Shown here: one piece after another, positions 2,440-24,259 of the stretch
Position numbering within the stretch: position 1 is the first letter of the stretch
Layout of the letters: the number at the start of each line of letters is the position of its first letter
Source of the DNA: Sulfurovum sp. XGS-02
GTDB taxonomy: Bacteria > Campylobacterota > Campylobacteria > Campylobacterales > Sulfurovaceae
Assembly (NCBI RefSeq): GCF_023213175.1
Contig: NZ_CP093312.1
Location: 1,736,001-1,800,000, forward strand
Length of the DNA: 64,000 bases
Direction of reading: 5' to 3'
Notes under the pieces: model-generated
What the model was told of the DNA's origin: nothing
What the model saw: the letters and a program-made list of their open reading frames with translations, nothing else
The model's database searches: none
Position numbers and translations under genes: made by a program

Positions 2440-3126
2440 TTATTCTGCTTCTTTTGTTTTTACTTGTTGATCATGGACCATGGAAGATATCTCTTCAAAA
2501 TTCAATCGTTCAAAATCTTTGTAATAGTATTCTATCGAAATATAGTCTTGTATCTTATAAGGACAAAATACACCATCACACACCGTAAGCAGATTTTGAT
2601 AGACACCTTTATCCAAAATAGGTGTGGCGATAAAAATATTTTTAGCCCCTCTTGCGATGACCGACTTGAGTGCGACCATCATGGTAAGTCCTGTCTCTAT
2701 ACACTCATCAGCCAAGATCACATATTTCCCCTTGAGAGAGATCAGATCCTTTCCTTTTCGATATTTATAGACATAAGAGAGGACTTCCTCCTCATACTTC
2801 CTGTGGGCTTCACCATAGACATAATCTTCATTGATCTCAAATGCATCGACAAGTGCTTTATGTATCACCACTTCTTCTGTTTCGGAAACCATTGCAATAG
2901 CCAGTTCAGGGTTATTGGGTGCCAATATCGGTTCCGCCAGTAAAATATCCATTTGTGCATTGATCGCTTTGGCTATCTTGTCCGCAAAATAAACGCCCCC
3001 TTCACTGACACCTATCACTACCGTTTCATTTTTTGAAAATAACTCTATAGGAAGTGTATCAATCAACTGTTTTGAAGCATCTTCTCTATTTTCAAAATAC
3101 GCATTAGGGTTTGAATCGCTGGGCAT
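2440..3126 (-). CDS. Phosphoribosyltransferase-fold protein
   Basis: A 228-residue type I phosphoribosyltransferase-fold protein. The PRPP loop is visible as YVILADECIETGLTM near residues 135-150: a hydrophobic strand, two acidic residues, then a TG turn. The substrate is unknown. Proteins like this are often annotated only as predicted phosphoribosyltransferases, and the acceptor base cannot be read from the sequence. I chose the ATG at 3126 because AGGAG lies seven bases upstream. A longer frame reaches 3168 but would overlap the J-domain gene further. The chosen start overlaps that gene's end by 23 bases, which suggests translational coupling. Confidence 0.8.
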   Translation of the reverse strand: MPSDSNPNAYFENREDASKQLIDTLPIELFSKNETVVIGVSEGGVYFADKIAKAINAQMDILLAEPILAPNNPELAIAMVSETEEVVIHKALVDAFEINEDYVYGEAHRKYEEEVLSYVYKYRKGKDLISLKGKYVILADECIETGLTMMVALKSVIARGAKNIFIATPILDKGVYQNLLTVCDGVFCPYKIQDYISIEYYYKDFERLNFEEISSMVHDQQVKTKEAE

Positions 3127-3376
3127 AATCTGCTCCTGGGAATTGTTTAGAAATTTCTTCTTCATCAAAAGTATAACGAAACTCTTCTATATACTTCATC
3201 AATAATTTATACGCATGGTTTAACTGCTCCATATTTTCAACCTCCCCTCCTAGGTCAGGGTGATTCTTTTTAGCCAAAAAATGGTACTGTTTTTTGATAT
3301 CCGCTTTGCTGATCAACTTGGGCAGATGTAATATCTCTAGCGCTTTTTCGATCTCATCTTTAGGATTGATATTCAT
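3104..3376 (-). CDS. Small J-domain (DnaJ-like) protein
   Basis: A 90-residue protein that is essentially one J domain. IKKQYHFLAKKNHPDLGG carries the HPD tripeptide (near residue 39) that stimulates DnaK-type ATPases. There is no G/F, zinc-finger or C-terminal client-binding region, so it is not DnaJ itself but a single-domain co-chaperone. Its ATG overlaps the lptD stop (TAATG), and its end overlaps the phosphoribosyltransferase start, so the three are co-translated. A role in folding or targeting an envelope client is only a guess from this position. Confidence 0.85.
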   Translation of the reverse strand: MNINPKDEIEKALEILHLPKLISKADIKKQYHFLAKKNHPDLGGEVENMEQLNHAYKLLMKYIEEFRYTFDEEEISKQFPGADYAQRFKP

Positions 3377-5914: not shown

Positions 5915-7183
5915 CTAGAGTGCCTGATATGCGATGTCTGTACGACACTGCTTGCCTGCAAAATGGACCTGTCCTACCAACATATAGGCACGCTTTTGTG
6001 CCTCTTTGATACTATCACCGATACCTACACATACCAGTACCCTACCCCCTGTTGCATAGAGTTTTCCATCTTCACCACGCGTGACTCCCGCATAGGAGAT
6101 ATGTGCATTTTCCTTTACCTCTTCATGGTAGATATCATCTACGATGATCTCTGCAGGCGGTGTACTTTTATACGGATAGTCTTTACTTGCCATCACGACG
6201 CCGACCGCATATTTGTCATGAAACTCTATCTTGGCATTTTTAAGATCACCTGTTGCTGCCTTATAAAAGAGTTCAGAAGCCGGAGACTTGAGCAGTGGCA
6301 TCAACTCTTCACATTCAGGATCCCCAAAACGTACATTATACTCAAGGATGATAGGCTCACCTTTTACCACCATCACACCGATAAAAAGTACACCCGTAAA
6401 CGGCATACCTTCAGCTTCCATACCCTTCAGTGTAGGCTCTATAACGCGTTCGTTCAACTTACGATAGATCTCATCATTGACCAGCGGTGTAGGGGCATAG
6501 GCACCCATACCGCCTGTATTTGGTCCTTCATCATTGTTGAGAAGTCTTTTATGGTCCTGTGCGGCAGGTAAAACCACATAATCTTTCCCATCACAGATAG
6601 CAAATACAGAAAGCTCATAACCATCCAGGAACTCTTCCACAACGATACTTGTTCCCGCATCACCAAATGAGTTACCTGAAAGCATTTCACCCGCAGCTTT
6701 TTTTGCTTCATCATGACTTTGCGCAATGATCACACCCTTACCACCGCAAAGTCCATCAGCTTTCACTACGATCGGTGCATCCAGCGTCATGATAAAGTCA
6801 TAGGCATCCTGCAATGAATCCGTTTCAATGTACTTGGCTGTAGGCACATTGTGACGGGCAAGAAAGTTTTTCATAAAGATCTTGGAACCTTCAAGTTGTG
6901 CCGCTTGGGCTGTAGGTCCAAAGATCGTAAGACCTCTCTCTTTAAAGACATCCACAATACCGCCTACCAATGGTGCTTCAGGCCCCACAATCGTTAGTTC
7001 GATACCATTGTCTTCAACAAAATCAGCCAATGCAGAAAAGTCACTGATCTCCAGATTCTCACCTAAGGTATCTGTCGCTCCATTGCCCGGTGCAAAATAG
7101 ATCTTCTCTACATTCTCATCTTTTGTCAATGCCAAACCAATAGAGTATTCTCTACCGCCGGCACCTATTATCAATACATTCAT
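5915..7183 (-). CDS. purD: Phosphoribosylamine-glycine ligase (GAR synthetase)
   Basis: A 422-residue PurD, which joins glycine to phosphoribosylamine using ATP in step two of purine synthesis. The N-terminal Rossmann part begins NVLIIGAGGREYSI. GPEAPLVGG sits near residue 67. The ATP-grasp domain follows with VVKADGLCGGKGVII and the family signature EGPNTGGMGAY. RFGDPECEELMPLL is also present. GGAGAA precedes the ATG at 7183. An extended -10 (TGGTGATAAT, GATAAT at 7207-7212, minus strand) would give a short leader of about 17 bases. It is the first gene of the purD-lptD-pnp block. Confidence 0.96.
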   Translation of the reverse strand: MNVLIIGAGGREYSIGLALTKDENVEKIYFAPGNGATDTLGENLEISDFSALADFVEDNGIELTIVGPEAPLVGGIVDVFKERGLTIFGPTAQAAQLEGSKIFMKNFLARHNVPTAKYIETDSLQDAYDFIMTLDAPIVVKADGLCGGKGVIIAQSHDEAKKAAGEMLSGNSFGDAGTSIVVEEFLDGYELSVFAICDGKDYVVLPAAQDHKRLLNNDEGPNTGGMGAYAPTPLVNDEIYRKLNERVIEPTLKGMEAEGMPFTGVLFIGVMVVKGEPIILEYNVRFGDPECEELMPLLKSPASELFYKAATGDLKNAKIEFHDKYAVGVVMASKDYPYKSTPPAEIIVDDIYHEEVKENAHISYAGVTRGEDGKLYATGGRVLVCVGIGDSIKEAQKRAYMLVGQVHFAGKQCRTDIAYQAL

Positions 7184-7226: not shown

Positions 7227-7350
7227 TCAGATTAGCAGGGATGACCATTGTGCGTAGAGGGTTTTGGAAAGGTGTGAAGGAGAACTGCCTTGTTCATCGA
7301 TGACCTTTCCAAAGTCCTGTGCGTACAACCATCGTCACTAATAAGACCCG
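7227..7350 (+). ncRNA. Candidate rod-shaped structured RNA between purD and the 6S candidate
   Basis: This stretch can fold end to end. GTC..ATTAG near 7228-7237 pairs with CTAAT..GAC near 7338-7347. TTGT pairs with ACAA further in, and an 11-bp stem TTTGGAAAGGT (7263-7273) pairs with ACCTTTCCAAA (7303-7313) under a small apical hairpin. A CATAAT box at 7215-7220 would start a plus-strand RNA at about 7227, divergent from purD. The strand is uncertain, because the same fold exists on the minus strand as part of a long purD leader. No protein frame here looks real. I could not match it to RNase P, tmRNA or SRP RNA. Confidence 0.35.
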
Positions 7351-7535
7351 GGTGAGCGTTCTGTGTCAAGTCGGCCCTATATATAGCCAACGGTGCAGGA
7401 GAGAGTCTCTCTTTAGGGGATGATCTCTCGCCGACCAGGTCAAGCTCAAACAAAAACATCCGCACACCAAAAGACTACATGTCCCGCCAAGAATAAATGT
7501 TGGACCCCAAATACAGTAGTCGCATCACCTAGGCT
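7345..7535 (-). ncRNA. ssrS: Candidate 6S RNA, upstream of purD
   Basis: A minus-strand TATAAT at 7542-7547 predicts transcription from about 7535. The first transcribed bases (CCTAGGTGA, one bulged T, GCG) pair with CGCTCACCCGGG at 7347-7358, giving a closing stem with 11-12 pairs. Further in, GGTGTG can pair with TGCACC, and GGATG with CATCC, so the roughly 190-base RNA forms a long rod with internal bubbles, as in 6S RNA, which binds sigma70 RNA polymerase. Length, own promoter and terminal pairing fit. I recall 6S RNA beside purD in epsilonproteobacteria but cannot confirm it here. A covariance-model search would decide. Confidence 0.5.
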
Positions 7536-7541
7536 AAATAT

Positions 7542-7547
7542 ATTATA
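7542..7547 (-). promoter_or_regulatory. -10 box for the 6S RNA candidate
   Basis: A perfect TATAAT on the minus strand lies just after the hemD stop codon (7550-7552), seven bases before the first base of the predicted closing stem. No TTGACA-like -35 box is visible, as is usual for epsilonproteobacterial promoters. Confidence 0.6.
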
Positions 7548-7549
7548 AC

Positions 7550-8215
7550 CTATTTGGAGTTAGAAGCGAGTAAAATCTGCTCTGCTTTTAGTATACAGGC
7601 ATCTATCGTTGGCCTATCGGCAACTTCATAATGTGTATGTACGGGTAAATGTTTTTTTGTCGCTTTACCTATAATGACGGCGGTATAACTTTCATCCCAT
7701 TCAAAATTCTTCAAAAAACAGTGAATAGTCGAGGGGGATGTGAAGATGATAATGGCATTTTTATCCGGTTTCTCTTTTTGTTCATAGCGGATACAGGAAG
7801 TTTCATAAATGATCTGTTCCTGAAGGTCTATTCCCGCTTTAGCTAAAAAAGTTTTTGCATCAAAAGAGACCTGTTTAGGGCGTAGGTATAGTATCTGTTT
7901 ATCTTTAAATTGTGTGATGATCTCTTGGCTTAATGTTTCAGCATAAAATGATTTGGGTTGGTACATCACTTTCCCACCCAGAGACTCTATCTCTTTTGCC
8001 GTGGCAGAACCTATAGCCAGACAGGGATACTTTTTCCATTCTGGATTTAATACTTCTGCACTTTTAACCGCCTGCTTGGAGGTAAAGAGCAGTGTATCAC
8101 ATGTTGACAGATCTATTGTTGGGACTAGAGGTGAAAAACGTATCATAGGTAGATGTATCGTTCCCTCCCTAGGCAGAGGAGATAAAAGATAGATCATACC
8201 ATCTGCGTGCATCAT
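7550..8215 (-). CDS. hemD: Uroporphyrinogen-III synthase
   Basis: About 215-221 residues with the two-lobed HemD pattern. It has TLLFTSKQAVKSA, then CLAIGSATAKEIESLGG, and in the second half IIIFTSPSTIHCF and TAVIIGKATKKHL. HemD closes hydroxymethylbilane into uroporphyrinogen III for heme and siroheme. HemD sequences diverge strongly, so the call rests on these paired motifs and on length. The frame opens with ATGATG at 8215, two bases after the transporter stop. The ATG at 8197 (MIYLLSPL) is an equally likely start. It is the last gene of the block that begins at 9812. Confidence 0.85.
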   Translation of the reverse strand: MMHADGMIYLLSPLPREGTIHLPMIRFSPLVPTIDLSTCDTLLFTSKQAVKSAEVLNPEWKKYPCLAIGSATAKEIESLGGKVMYQPKSFYAETLSQEIITQFKDKQILYLRPKQVSFDAKTFLAKAGIDLQEQIIYETSCIRYEQKEKPDKNAIIIFTSPSTIHCFLKNFEWDESYTAVIIGKATKKHLPVHTHYEVADRPTIDACILKAEQILLASNSK

Positions 8216-24181: not shown

Positions 24182-24186
24182 GCTAA

Positions 24187-24259
24187 GTTAACAAGCTAAA
24201 CTCATTGTGAAGTGGGGACAGAAAGCCATGGGTCTCATGAAGATCGCCAGGCTGCAAAC
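24187..24259 (+). promoter_or_regulatory. GEMM-I type cyclic dinucleotide riboswitch aptamer
   Basis: The element has the order of the c-di-GMP-I (GEMM) aptamer. GCTAAAC (24195-24201) is followed by a hairpin CTCATT (24201-24206), a GTGA GNRA tetraloop and AGTGGG (24211-24216). GACAGAAAGCC follows at 24217-24227, then GGGTCT and, after a second arm, GATCGCCAGGCTGC (24242-24255). GTT at 24187 can close with AAC at 24257-24259. Consensus members have GGGACGCAAAGCC and GCCAGGCUGCC in these places. It lies 77 bases before the ATG of the phosphorelay operon. Competing stems ACAGT/ACTGT and ACTTA/TAAGT just downstream may be the switch. Confidence 0.85.

Follow-up and report, generated by a model that had tools for sequence, protein, structure and literature searches.

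The window (the whole stretch of 64,000 nucleotides that was analysed) encodes, between purD and hemD on its minus strand, an RNA that in our reading is this bacterium's 6S RNA (ssrS), a trans-acting RNA that would hold RNA polymerase and be released by pRNA synthesis; we put the probability of this reading at about 0.93. 6S RNA had been described in the phylum before but not in this species; the find is ordinary in kind, and its value lies in a phylum-wide link, in the correction of a database entry and in a full-length model that serves the whole phylum. A divergent 6S RNA had been one of two possibilities named in a preliminary description of the sequence, and it is supported by the published work on C. 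jejuni and H. pylori, by reciprocal model matches, by the layout of the RNA and by the covariation of its closing stem. The other possibility, a new structured RNA, turned out to be wrong because the RNA is a known Rfam family that carries a different name. The same description had held that the sequence was not recognisable as any standard family, which is incorrect: the Rfam model RF01069 (“purD RNA motif”) matches the RNA on the minus strand with 68 bits (cut-off 41; Table 1).

RF01069 and the window RNA are the same RNA, but the Rfam model is shorter at the 5' end: it is limited to the two-thirds nearest the 3' end and leaves out about 57 nt, among them the 5' arm of the closing stem and the 5' strand of the central bubble. 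Rfam files the motif as type Cis-reg, and in Rfam-based annotation a probable global regulator of transcription appears across the phylum as a cis-element of purD. For comparison we used a full-length model (R1), which was made from 39 sequences, all from Campylobacterota, its structure being taken from the alignment, partly by eye (the GCGGGA/UCCUGC helix), and its calibration being short. RF01069 was present in 282 of the 298 Campylobacterota genomes, and 15 of the 16 genomes without an RF01069 match were matched by R1. Within the genus of the window, R1 detected the RNA in 70 of 78 genomes (39 of the 40 more complete ones). The full-length model reaches nearly all Campylobacterota, where the classical 6S model RF00013 alone would suggest that 6S RNA is missing. 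The sole genome of the 298 matched by neither RF01069 nor R1 (G174) contains purD, and the missing RNA reflects either an assembly gap or a loss.

A literature search for the purD motif by name yielded nothing past one benchmark mention of RF01069, and 6S RNA and Sulfurovum were found named together only in PMC3847290, in which the motif is credited to Weinberg et al. 2007. According to that study, the 6S RNA of C. jejuni is a 185-nt RNA upstream of purD, detected by Northern blot and the top-transcribed non-coding RNA besides rRNA and tRNA; a 13-nt antisense pRNA was found, a 6S homologue lies in the same purD-upstream region of H. pylori, for which a pRNA is known as well, and the purD motif is called “a shorter version” of the C. 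jejuni 6S RNA (PMC3847290). In a named C. jejuni contig, we obtained a full-length R1 match at 7378-7572 (-) with 111.7 bits, the RF01069 match (7381-7510) being nested within it and the start of PurD lying about 22 nt 3' of the RNA. The window RNA resembles the 6S RNAs of C. jejuni and H. pylori in its site upstream of purD, its length (185 nt in C. jejuni), its rod layout and its putative promoter, whereas it differs from them in its diverged sequence, in having hemD upstream and in the presence of a MITE-related hairpin between the RNA and purD.

The 6S transcript of ~190 nt likely runs from about 7535 to about 7345 on the minus strand (Table 1). The TATAAT reported in the preliminary description was confirmed 7 nt ahead of 7535; 63 of 70 loci have the box 5' of the RNA, and its conservation points to a sigma-70-type promoter for the RNA. 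The names hemD and purD are those of the preliminary description, and homologues of both genes flank the RNA in relatives; those of hemD adjoin it in many genomes, including those from which purD has moved away. A 77-aa ORF (7232-7465) that overlaps the RNA and the spacer was treated as a chance frame because the double changes preserve RNA pairing.

Table 1. Coordinates of the 6S RNA, its structural parts and its flanking genes in the window
Feature	Position	Strand	Basis or remark
6S RNA	7343-7537	-	R1, 163.9 bits (a match by construction, because the window sequence is part of R1), R1 positions 1-195 of 195; RF01069 at 7346-7478
-10 box TATAAT of the putative 6S promoter	7542-7547	-	direct reading
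Closing stem, 5' arm CCUAGGUGAUGCG	7521-7533	-	alignment columns 8-20, covariation
Closing stem, 3' arm CGCUCACCCGGG	7347-7358	-	alignment columns 212-223, covariation
GGUCC, closing-stem side of the bubble	7502-7506	-	helix 3, pairs with 7373-7377
Central bubble, 5' strand AACAUUUAUUCUUG	7488-7501	-	flanked by helices 3 and 4, unpaired
GCGGGA, base of the terminal arm	7482-7487	-	helix 4, pairs with 7395-7400 (UCCUGC)
Terminal stem-loop	7401-7481	-	helices 5-7, 89-94% of cells paired
Central bubble, 3' strand ACCGUUGGCUAUAUAUA	7378-7394	-	alignment and structure
Alternative hairpin GUUGGC...GCCGAC, 3' side of the bubble	7370-7391	-	exclusive with the GGUCC helix
GGGCC, part of helix 3 (closing the bubble) and of the alternative hairpin	7373-7377	-	pairing analysis
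purD, phosphoribosylamine-glycine ligase	5915-7183	-	downstream neighbour, 159 nt past the RNA
hemD, uroporphyrinogen-III synthase (name from the preliminary description)	7550-8215	-	upstream neighbour

Folded on its own, the window RNA has an unexceptional energy (z = -1.24; 21 of 200 shuffled sequences fold as well), so the comparative evidence had to carry the claim, and single-sequence folding was dropped as proof of a structured RNA because it was not significant. The alignment of 39 sequences revealed a closing stem in which the 5' and 3' ends pair, a central bubble and a terminal stem-loop. Across the whole structure (48 pairs), 92.4% of the cells are paired, 33 of the 48 pairs show double changes, and the cells with double changes number 320, compared to 96 in shuffled alignments; with slid partners, pairing falls below 49%. 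Paired changes in relatives, a check proposed at the outset, are present in the closing stem across the 39 sequences: 97.6% of its cells are paired, both sides have changed in 7 of its 12 pairs, and it contains 57 cells with double changes (15.4 in shuffled alignments), while slid versions pair in only 32-49%. Of the 12 pairs that the alignment gives for the closing stem, the window itself forms 11, the deviations being a single A.C mismatch and a single bulged U, in agreement with the paired ends described previously. The rod with bubbles is likewise borne out by the minimum-energy fold of the window RNA, which favours the alternative hairpin over a fully open bubble. Among the helices that flank the bubble, helix 3 (GGUCC/GGGCC) is paired in 98.5% of the cells with double changes in 3 of 5 pairs, and helix 4 (GCGGGA/UCCUGC) in 78.1% with double changes in 5 of 6; the alternative hairpin (GUUGGC...GCCGAC) is paired in 85.5% of the cells and has double changes in 4 of 6 pairs. 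Against ~190 nt elsewhere in the phylum, longer variants of 222-226 nt occur in two genera of one family (L085-L087, L089-L091 and L093; genera g23 and g44, family f2).

The covariance model of classical 6S RNA (RF00013), which had been suggested as a check on the assignment, gave no match in this genome, and in none of the 298 Campylobacterota relatives did it reach its cut-off (46.4 bits); this cut-off belongs to a single model and does not define 6S RNA biologically. At E <= 0.001, the 298 genomes contain six sub-cut-off RF00013 matches, all of them on this RNA. A permissive RF00013 search found a same-strand, end-to-end match (1-187 of 187) at the RNA in 11 of 56 loci (7 of 20, 3 of 20 and 1 of 16), the best score being 45.7 bits against the cut-off of 46.4. 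In the opposite direction, within 6 kb of E. coli sequence containing ssrS (annotated at 2984-3166), the top match of R1 was at 2985-3165, with a low score (14.4 bits, E 0.0013; next best in the 6 kb, 7.9 bits), although the strand agrees and each end lies within 1 nt. The matching is reciprocal, and judged from it the purD-upstream RNA and classical 6S RNA are homologous, and the Rfam purD motif and 6S RNA are one family. The window RNA shares with RF00013 and E. coli ssrS the closing stem, the central bubble, the terminal arm and a comparable length, but it scores below the cut-off and its primary sequence is mostly different. That RF00013 stays below its cut-off throughout could also be read as convergence, i.e., a new family whose structured RNA merely resembles 6S RNA, but this is hardly credible in view of the end-to-end matches in both directions with agreeing ends and of the experimental work in two genera (PMC3847290).

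The position of the RNA raises the question of a function in cis. An ORF homologous to PurD lies directly 3' of the RNA on the same strand in 65 of 70 loci, RF01069 is typed as Cis-reg, and a terminator looked for between the RNA and purD in the window was not found, all of which would suit a riboswitch or other cis-regulatory purD leader that senses a ligand of the purine pathway and controls the gene. The position is, however, no obligate one: in five genomes (L048, L079-L081 and L083; four from family f4 and one from f1) the RNA follows hemD and is itself followed by a yebC-like, HD-domain-like, ferredoxin/hydrogenase-like, sensor-like or opposite-strand gene (names assigned by reading the proteins). 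Each of the five genomes has one good R1 match; its intact purD, which lacks the RNA, lies on a different contig or is separated from the RNA by 135 kb or more. The persistence of the RNA apart from purD in these genomes is more readily explained by action in trans than by a purD riboswitch. The distance between RNA and purD is moreover variable (11 to 190 nt), the two ends of the RNA pair with each other, a promoter-like box of its own precedes it, and in C. jejuni it is a discrete 185-nt transcript (PMC3847290). We consider a purD riboswitch very unlikely, and the comparative data support an RNA predicted to act in trans. The unlinked loci constitute natural tests by which 6S function can be separated from effects on purD.

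An additional cis role, compatible with the plain 6S reading, is improbable but deserves more weight than the riboswitch: read-through and processing might couple 6S output to purD, with nucleotide supply affecting both. The linkage to purD has been retained across most of the phylum, and the neighbour downstream of E. coli ssrS is, in place of purD, the folate-pathway gene fau. Against it, the linkage is gone in the five genomes, where the RNA has not visibly been lost, and history alone could maintain a linkage.

For the 6S RNA, we propose that a promoter of the sigma-70 type yields an RNA of ~190 nt whose ends pair, as the covariation indicates. The central bubble of the rod, flanked by the covarying GGUCC/GGGCC and GCGGGA/UCCUGC helices, would mimic an open promoter and thereby hold RNA polymerase with the primary sigma factor, by analogy to E. 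coli 6S RNA. Synthesis of a short pRNA by the polymerase, with the 5' strand of the bubble as template, would bring about release, and the 3' side would then adopt the alternative hairpin (both pairings are conserved). By the same analogy, RNA polymerase binding and pRNA synthesis are to be expected in this organism, and membership in the family suggests control by growth state. The template side of the pRNA is probably the 5' strand of the bubble, AACAUUUAUUCUUG (7488-7501), together with the adjoining GGGGUCC, a part of the 5' half of the RNA that is highly conserved in the alignment. Classical 6S RNA refolds on release. The conserved alternative pairing resembles this refolding, and a corresponding switch may exist in the window RNA. 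The physiological role may differ from that of E. coli 6S RNA because the level of C. jejuni 6S RNA shows no growth-phase change (PMC3847290).

Directly 3' of the 6S end and before purD lies a second conserved hairpin (7231-7344, minus strand), which is present in most genomes of the genus and has no match in Rfam. It is an imperfect palindrome of ~113 nt with 29 pairs, 16 of which show double changes (18 sequences). Relatives of this hairpin (L096-L124) and dispersed copies (L158-L177) were collected, and a model of it (R2) gave 15 dispersed matches in G145, 21 in G407 and 10 in G219, some of these counts including both strands of one copy because the element is nearly palindromic. In other Campylobacterota, the dispersed copies are ~180 bp long, with terminal repeats like CCCAAATCTCGAAATAGA and flanking duplications of about 5 bp, and by these sequence features they are classed as MITE-like. 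The copy adjacent to the 6S RNA is without MITE-type ends; it seems to be fixed and has possibly been domesticated. Treating the entire spacer between 6S RNA and purD as part of the 6S RNA was rejected because the spacer is an element in its own right, with related copies at other genomic sites. It is conceivable, but we regard it as quite unlikely, that selection keeps the 6S RNA by a purine gene and that read-through via the fixed MITE-derived hairpin, turned in this genus into an element for processing or attenuation, ties polymerase sequestration to purine supply. In G145, which belongs to another family of the phylum, one MITE copy (L170, G145:C1:389702-389815) is located just 5' of that genome's own 6S RNA, either by chance or through a preference for the site. 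Elsewhere in the window, a c-di-GMP-I riboswitch (RF01051, 54.1 bits) was identified at 24185-24259 (+), 5' of PAS-domain-like and hybrid-sensor-type genes.
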